64,000 nucleotides of DNA from an uncultured Spirochaetales bacterium (GTDB taxonomy: Bacteria > Spirochaetota > Spirochaetia > Sphaerochaetales > Sphaerochaetaceae), in assembly GCA_944393005.1 (NCBI GenBank), contig CALXYO010000001.1, forward strand, positions 124,001-188,000, in the 5' to 3' direction. A program made the position numbers and the translations under genes. The notes beneath the pieces are model-generated. The model searched no databases. It saw only the letters and a list, made by a program, of their open reading frames with translations, and had not been told where the DNA came from. This document shows, one piece after another, positions 3,925 through 5,652 of the stretch (positions are counted from its first letter, which is position 1; each line of letters opens with the position of its first letter).

Positions 3925-4536
3925 ATGAAAAAGAGAACAATGATTATCACATTAGTGCTTCTTGCCATACTGTCATGCATGCCTGCATTCAGTGCAACGT
4001 ATTATGACAACGGCAGCCAGCGTTTCACTATAACAGCTGGTGTGAACTTTCCTATTTCAACTACGCTGTTTGATGAGAATCATACCTATGTTGGTTCTGG
4101 GTATGGTGGAAACAAAACAGGTTTCACTCTTCTCGGAGGCTATGGTTCACTTACATATCAGATGTTTGTAAATCCATACTTCGCACTCGGTGGTGAAATC
4201 GGATATGGCTTCAATTATTATGTTGATGATGCTCTGCTCACCAATGTTCCGATGCAGTTCAAGGTATCATTCATTCCGCTTCAGGGAACAATTGAAATTC
4301 CTCTTTCGCTTGGTGCTGGTTTCTCTTATATGTCTGTCTCTGACGGTGGTGCATACATGCCCTTCTTCCTTTCATTTGAGACAGGTCTCGACTGGTACAT
4401 CACAGACAACTGGGGTATCGGAGTAAAGTCAGGGTTATGGGTGATTCCTGAACTTTATTTTGACAGCAGCAGGTCATATCAGAACGCACTTCAGACATTC
4501 ATACCACTGACACTTTCAGTAACATACAGACAATAA
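3925..4536 (+). CDS. Small outer-membrane beta-barrel protein with signal peptide
   Basis: The 203-residue product begins with a Sec signal peptide: MKKR, a hydrophobic stretch, then a likely signal peptidase I site after MPAFSA near residue 24. The rest alternates polar and aromatic/hydrophobic residues in short strands rich in Gly and Tyr (for example LTYQMFVNPYFALGGEIGYG), as expected for a barrel of about 8 strands. This resembles OmpW/OmpA-like barrels, but no specific family signature was recognised and the function is unknown. The TAA at 4534-4536 is followed directly by an 11-G tract and a lipoprotein gene, so the two are probably co-transcribed. The mRNA appears leaderless. Confidence 0.72.
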   Translation: MKKRTMIITLVLLAILSCMPAFSATYYDNGSQRFTITAGVNFPISTTLFDENHTYVGSGYGGNKTGFTLLGGYGSLTYQMFVNPYFALGGEIGYGFNYYVDDALLTNVPMQFKVSFIPLQGTIEIPLSLGAGFSYMSVSDGGAYMPFFLSFETGLDWYITDNWGIGVKSGLWVIPELYFDSSRSYQNALQTFIPLTLSVTYRQ

Positions 4537-4538
4537 AT

Positions 4539-4549
4539 GGGGGGGGGGG
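4539..4549 (+). repeat. Homopolymeric G tract (11 G)
   Basis: Eleven consecutive G follow the stop codon of the barrel protein and end 8 nt before the ATG at 4558. The tract doubles as the only G-rich ribosome-binding candidate for the lipoprotein gene. An ATG at 4537 runs into it and would encode a GGG-containing N-terminal extension in the present length state. Such tracts are slippage-prone. Confidence 0.95.
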
Positions 4550-4557
4550 TAACAGAA

Positions 4558-5652
4558 ATGAGAAAAATATTCATTCCAGTTCTTACGTTTTTAATGCTTA
4601 TATCCTTCGTCTCATGCAATCTTGACAATAACGGTATTCTCTGGACCGGTGTGAACCGTTATCCATCGGATGATAAAGACAGGAACTTTATCGGATACAG
4701 AACAGGTAAGCTCTACTACACAACAGTAGATGGCCTTTCTGAATTTGATCCTTCCAATGAAAGTTCAAATTCAGAACATGTTATAAGCGGTGATCATATT
4801 TTTATCAATAATTCTCATGACCGGGCATGGATTTCGGGAAATAAAATTGTTTATATCAATGATTATGTTCCTTCTGGTGGCAACATTAATCATCAGGATT
4901 ACTACATCTATAATATTGACGACAATTCTTTAAAAAATATTTCAAAGCCAAATCTTGGAGAATCTGTTGACAGAATCATAAGTACTTTTGTTAGTGCTGA
5001 CAGCAAACAGATGTTGGTTGGAAGTAACGGAACTTTCAACAAAATTCAAATCTTTGAAGCTGTGCTTGATGATAATGATCAGTTAAAATTAATAACAATT
5101 GGAAATGTTATTGAAAACTTTGTTGATGAAATGAACGGACTTGTCTGGTTTGAAGAAAATAACAAATTAAATTTTAAATATCTGAACACTGCTGTAACTT
5201 TTAACGATTCAACAGGTAAAACAGTTAATTTCTGGATCGATAATGACGATAATGATGGTGATCAGATAAGATCTGTAACAGTTAATGACAATAAAATGAC
5301 TGTTCTACGTTACTATGACGGATATGTTTATATTTACGAAGGAACAATAGAGGGATCTGCAATAGCGTTGAAACAGGTTAAAAGTTTTTCCGAAGATCTT
5401 AGTACTGTCCCATCTTTTATACATGATAACAAGCTTTATTTCCTCAAGTACAATTCAGCCAGATCTTCTGAGCTTTATATTGTAAATCTTGATGATTACT
5501 CTGCAAACAGTTATACAACAGATGTGGCAGGCTTACGTGCTGAAGCATTCTTCTTAGCTGATAACAATGTATTTATTCTTACTAAAGATAAAGGCGTATT
5601 CAGAATAGATGAAACTTCAGTAACTCCTGTTCCTGATTTGAGAAGACGCTGA
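4558..5652 (+). CDS. Predicted lipoprotein, AT-rich, function unknown
   Basis: Starting at ATG 4558, the 364-residue product has a lipoprotein signal peptide (MRKIF, hydrophobic core, lipobox-like ISFVSC near residue 20), so it is probably lipid-anchored in the envelope. The mature part is Asp/Asn-rich with repeating aromatic blocks such as KLYYTT, KIVYIND, YVYIYEG and KLYFLKY spaced 40-60 residues apart, which suggests a beta-propeller. The family was not recognised. The alternative start at 4537 adds seven residues encoded through the G tract and would spoil the signal peptide, so 4558 is preferred. The gene is visibly more AT-rich than its neighbours. It is followed by a strong terminator. 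Confidence 0.75.
   Translation: MRKIFIPVLTFLMLISFVSCNLDNNGILWTGVNRYPSDDKDRNFIGYRTGKLYYTTVDGLSEFDPSNESSNSEHVISGDHIFINNSHDRAWISGNKIVYINDYVPSGGNINHQDYYIYNIDDNSLKNISKPNLGESVDRIISTFVSADSKQMLVGSNGTFNKIQIFEAVLDDNDQLKLITIGNVIENFVDEMNGLVWFEENNKLNFKYLNTAVTFNDSTGKTVNFWIDNDDNDGDQIRSVTVNDNKMTVLRYYDGYVYIYEGTIEGSAIALKQVKSFSEDLSTVPSFIHDNKLYFLKYNSARSSELYIVNLDDYSANSYTTDVAGLRAEAFFLADNNVFILTKDKGVFRIDETSVTPVPDLRRR

Follow-up and report, generated by a model that had tools for sequence, protein, structure and literature searches.

A candidate slippage-prone poly-G Shine-Dalgarno region of a spirochaetal lipoprotein gene and related G tracts across the family

Results

In the 64-kb window, i.e. the whole stretch of DNA that was analysed here, which comes from an uncultured gut spirochaete, a run of eleven G residues stands immediately upstream of a lipoprotein gene (Table 1), and comparison with the orthologous loci suggests that this tract is probably the Shine-Dalgarno region of that gene, where changes in its length would tune translation. 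The tract belongs to a family-wide set of G runs that lie ahead of lipoprotein genes and mostly within promoters.

Table 1. Parts of the locus, with positions counted from the first letter of the window
Feature	Position	Strand	Remarks
Upstream gene, 203-aa signal-peptide protein, outer-membrane beta-barrel type	3925..4536	+	Type inferred from composition
Upstream ATG with poly-G leader, probably no main start	4537..4557	+	Frame and presence not conserved
Poly-G tract, G11	4539..4549	+	Aligns with ortholog Shine-Dalgarno; G8 in G015, GGAGG-type in other species
8-nt spacer taacagaa, tract to start codon	4550..4557	+	9 nt in G015
Lipoprotein gene, 364 aa, lipobox MRKIFIPVLTFLMLISFVSC, beta-propeller model	4558..5652	+	Start at ATG 4558 conserved in orthologs

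A tract of 11 G at the start of a lipoprotein gene had been reported in the first-pass annotation, and its length proved to be exactly that. The first G of the run is also the third base of the ATG at 4537-4539. The run starts 2 nt past the stop codon of the upstream gene (TAA, 4534-4536), and its 3' end is 8 nt ahead of the ATG at 4558. No other run of G or C in the whole window reaches 7: counting both strands, runs of exactly 2, 3, 4, 5, 6, 7 and 8 G number 4481, 786, 130, 17, 1, 0 and 0, followed by the single run of 11, and G11 appeared in none of 100 dinucleotide-preserving shuffles of the window. The source genome (G000; 2.26 Mb in 20 contigs) tells the same story at a larger scale, since its runs of exactly 7, 8, 9, 10 and 11 G, as derived from overlapping matches, number 6, 1, 4, 2 and 1, and the spectrum thus rises again from 9 G upward instead of decaying, which is a clear excess. 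The tract is no assembly artefact, given that an independently assembled relative, G015, carries G8 at the homologous place. As in contingency loci, the repeat is far longer than chance would produce, and it is found at the gene of an envelope protein, as judged from the lipobox, in the Shine-Dalgarno position, where its length could affect expression.

The earlier description of the site as lying between two envelope-protein genes was borne out, with the outer-membrane-type gene on the 5' side and the lipoprotein gene on the 3' side. There was no Pfam match for the upstream gene, and no Pfam family above the cut-off for the lipoprotein, whose lipobox reads FVSC. The AlphaFold model of the lipoprotein (nine orthologs; pLDDT 87.4) consists of all-beta repeats in a propeller-like arrangement, and its structural matches are generic beta-propellers, including BamB. 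We rejected an identification as BamB, because its TM score of about 0.4 is matched by many unrelated propellers. Relatives of the lipoprotein are present in 11 of the 15 other genomes of the genus, and the orthologs come directly after an upstream gene with the same TYRQ*-type end, so that this conserved C-terminus precedes either the tract or a Shine-Dalgarno sequence.

In the DNA alignment, the G tract fills the exact Shine-Dalgarno columns of the orthologs (G013, taaGGAGGaagtggaaATG; G014, tagGAGGTGGgaagATG), and the start at ATG 4558 is kept in orthologs; both observations support the proposal of the first-pass annotation that the tract forms the G-rich region where the ribosome would bind. 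The nearest relative is G015, with 54% protein identity, and the tract length differs between these sister species (G11 here vs G8 there, with one genome per species), while G012 has G5 at the tract position. Since the 3' end of the 16S rRNA was not found in the assembly of the source genome, the anti-Shine-Dalgarno sequence was assumed to be canonical; on that assumption the modelled duplex gave -15.2 for the focal tract vs -15.0 for G014 and -11.1 for G013, i.e. in the model the tract pairs as strongly as a good ortholog site. The modelled folding changed with length, the last five Gs being unpaired at 0.07 with 8 G and at 0.37 with 11 G, a weak indication that they become freer in a longer run. 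In 138 genomes of the family, G8 located 4-9 nt before ATGARRA was found at about 22 places vs about 7 in the reversed control, so tracts of the Shine-Dalgarno type are a minority. Another tract of the source genome, a G10 at C1:43046, lies 10 nt before a lipoprotein start and has no informative ortholog.

The larger set to which the focal tract belongs was seen at both genus and family level. The 16 genomes of the genus hold 97 further tracts of at least 9 G (68 G9 and 24 G10), and TA follows the tract directly in 54 of the 97. A perfect TTGACA was located 15-22 bp before the TA in 19 of these 54, most often at 16, where about 0.1 would be expected by chance (an estimate, 54 x 8 / 4096). Lipoprotein starts within 150 nt downstream were found for 29 of 95 tracts on the G strand, compared to 5 of 91 on the opposite strand and 13 of 1338 random positions. 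In the family, 49 of 139 genomes contain TTGAC-N(6-12)-G8-TA, against zero hits for the reversed control throughout. In both genus and family, sister tracts are placed between -35 and -10 elements, and the start site would lie ahead of the start codon. The richest genus is g10, whose genomes (e.g. L201-L230) each contain up to about a dozen TTGACA-N-G9-TA promoters, nearly all of the sampled ones ahead of lipoprotein genes; where a sampled promoter had an ORF within 200 nt, this ORF encoded a lipoprotein in 25 of 26 cases, and about 25-45 nt separated the tract from its start. Among the matches listed for g10, for which 11-33 was allowed, the distance from TTGACA to TA was 16-23 with a peak at 19. 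With a peak at 19 and not at 17, either many of the assembled copies would represent a weaker state, or the -10 would have a different position.

G9 tracts of the source genome were also found beside an IS3-like element, which was read from its ends at contig ends and whose transposase was not recovered. All four right ends (contigs C1 end, C6 end, C13 start and C18 start; L071-L074) are followed by a G9 tract after exactly 4 bp, and at those sites where a -35 is present, the element is located between the -35 and the tract. The inverted repeat is TGARCTGACCCCCTGAAGGTAGACA, and the two sites with both flanks known have 3-bp target duplications, GAC and CTA. Uninterrupted versions of the insertion sites are carried by G015 (L153, L157). 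Other IS ends are found at the C9 end and C4 end (L070, L075). Judging from these positions, the IS3-like element may choose poly-G promoters as its targets.

Discussion

Three other readings of the focal tract have to be weighed against that of a Shine-Dalgarno region with a tunable length. It could be hypothesized that the tract separates a -35 from a -10, such that slippage alters transcription as in tp0126, porA and the sister tracts. The sister tracts do show TTGACA-N-G9-TANNNT, and the focal tract is preceded by CAGACA at exactly 17 bp from a TAACAG. However, CAGACA falls within the codons for the conserved TYRQ* end and recurs in the orthologs that have no tract, TAACAG matches a -10 poorly, the implied transcription start at about 4562 falls inside the gene, past the ATG at 4558, and in G015 the spacing of the -35-like and -10-like letters is 14. 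Moreover, a promoter consensus scan gave no site spanning the focal tract. Considering that the -35-like letters are conserved coding sequence and that the start site would be inside the gene, we rejected a role as promoter spacer, which seems very unlikely here: the focal tract has neither the flanking -35 and -10 nor a start site upstream of the start codon.

A second pathway could be envisioned in which ribosomes begin at ATG 4537, right after the upstream stop (TAAATG), and the length of the tract sets the frame. The first-pass annotation had placed this ATG in frame with 4558, which is true at 11 G, and would hold at 8 G as well. At 10 G it would give a 4-codon minicistron that stops after MGGG, and at 9 or 12 G an overlapping frame of 28-29 codons. 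Because the frame changes with tract length, a role through termination-reinitiation is possible, and the upstream stop abutting this ATG could allow it. We nevertheless find the scenario quite unlikely, as ATG 4537 is without a Shine-Dalgarno, is missing from the tract-less orthologs, and has a counterpart in G015 that is 19 nt from the true start and out of frame; these same three points make improbable the on/off product that had been predicted from this start. In addition, initiation at 4537 would place MGGGVTE ahead of a normal signal peptide, and the tract lies 5' of the conserved start and not inside a conserved reading frame. A third possibility is a static G-rich ribosome-binding site, where long G runs work as a Shine-Dalgarno and their length is irrelevant. 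Every length of at least 8 would indeed retain a G-rich pairing stretch at the proper spacing, and the G5 of G012 stands at the same position. Yet runs this long are nearly absent elsewhere in the genome and are concentrated at lipoprotein genes, and the length differs from that of the sister species, which makes a static site unlikely.

If the tract is a Shine-Dalgarno region of tunable length, the following pathway can be put forth. The lipoprotein gene would be the downstream member of a two-gene unit, with the tract as its ribosome-binding region, and the slippage-prone G run would have taken the place of an ordinary GGAGG-type site, a replacement that probably dates from a common ancestor with G015. 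Both the slippage in this species and its effect on translation are steps that we infer. Replication slippage would make the run longer or shorter, and since the 3' edge is fixed 8 nt before ATG 4558, the new length would act by changing the number of Gs able to pair with the anti-Shine-Dalgarno, and also how the RNA folds locally and how far the upstream stop codon lies away. Translation of the lipoprotein would thereby be graded up or down, with the protein itself unaltered. The effect of length on translation could be small, since any length of at least 8 leaves five Gs at the proper spacing.

Poly-G tracts at surface-protein genes have precedents. In Treponema pallidum, tp0126 has its poly-G between the -35 and the -10, and tprL has 7-11 G in vivo, mostly 9, with a transcript beginning 4 nt beyond the tract on its 3' side, and an effect on transcription (PMC7864442). 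Like the focal locus, tp0126 and Neisseria meningitidis porA (PMC7864442) have poly-G, of variable length in these two, at the gene of a surface protein, and tp0126 is also spirochaetal. The -35/poly-G/-10 layout of these two is the same as in the sister tracts of the family, whereas the focal tract is located at the Shine-Dalgarno and would act on translation. Similarly, the poly-G of tprE, tprG, tprJ and tprL (PMC7864442) is 5' of genes for outer-membrane proteins, as here, and the commonest length in tprL, 9 G, is the commonest length in the source genus; unlike in tprL, the focal tract lies within a gene pair and is separated from the start codon by just 8 nt. The parallel to T. pallidum drawn in the earlier annotation is therefore apt in kind, since poly-G tracts at genes for lipoproteins and secreted proteins, the focal one among them, form a set that spans genus and family, but the mechanism of tp0126 fits the sister tracts and not the focal one, and the source organism belongs to Candidatus Aphodenecus and not to Treponema. 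With the phase-variable loci based on simple sequence repeats (reviewed in PMC11868660, where words for ribosome-binding sites do not occur), the focal locus shares a mononucleotide tract at the gene of a surface protein; those loci vary in length and expression, which for the focal tract is a prediction from its sequence. In the open-access literature, as covered by titles and abstracts, we recognised no paper on a poly-G run serving as a Shine-Dalgarno; the open-access literature likewise gave nothing relevant on phase variation in Sphaerochaeta or on IS3 elements that target G tracts.

Most of what is known of poly-G phase variation in spirochaetes comes from the agent of syphilis, which is hard to manipulate. 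The G runs of this family look like genetic dimmer switches. The commoner sister type, placed in the spacer between -35 and -10, would act on transcription, and the focal tract would add a mechanism in which the repeat is itself the ribosome-binding site and the output graded instead of on/off. If the tracts slip, these gut spirochaetes would vary their lipoprotein coats randomly while in the host gut, and metagenomic reads could show such changes directly. We tentatively regard it as possible that these tracts form a large and so far undescribed array of poly-G switches for lipoprotein genes, in which most would work via promoter spacing, a second class would consist of slipping Shine-Dalgarno sequences, and an IS3-like element would target the same G9 tracts.

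Tracts were also observed in settings other than these. A G10 in the source genome (G000:C6:100915-100924; L069) and a G9 in G008 C10 (L099) lie at corresponding positions in the leader of a secreted protein (MRR..LLFISS..AYQLSPLNVTYAPSGADSAKVYTITND), and a small inverted repeat is located just 3' of the tract; this arrangement is conserved between species. Tracts of G8-G9 were found inside lipoprotein reading frames soon after the start (G000:C9:115713-115720, L070; L111; L137), where the gain or loss of a G would act as a genuine on/off switch by frame-shift.
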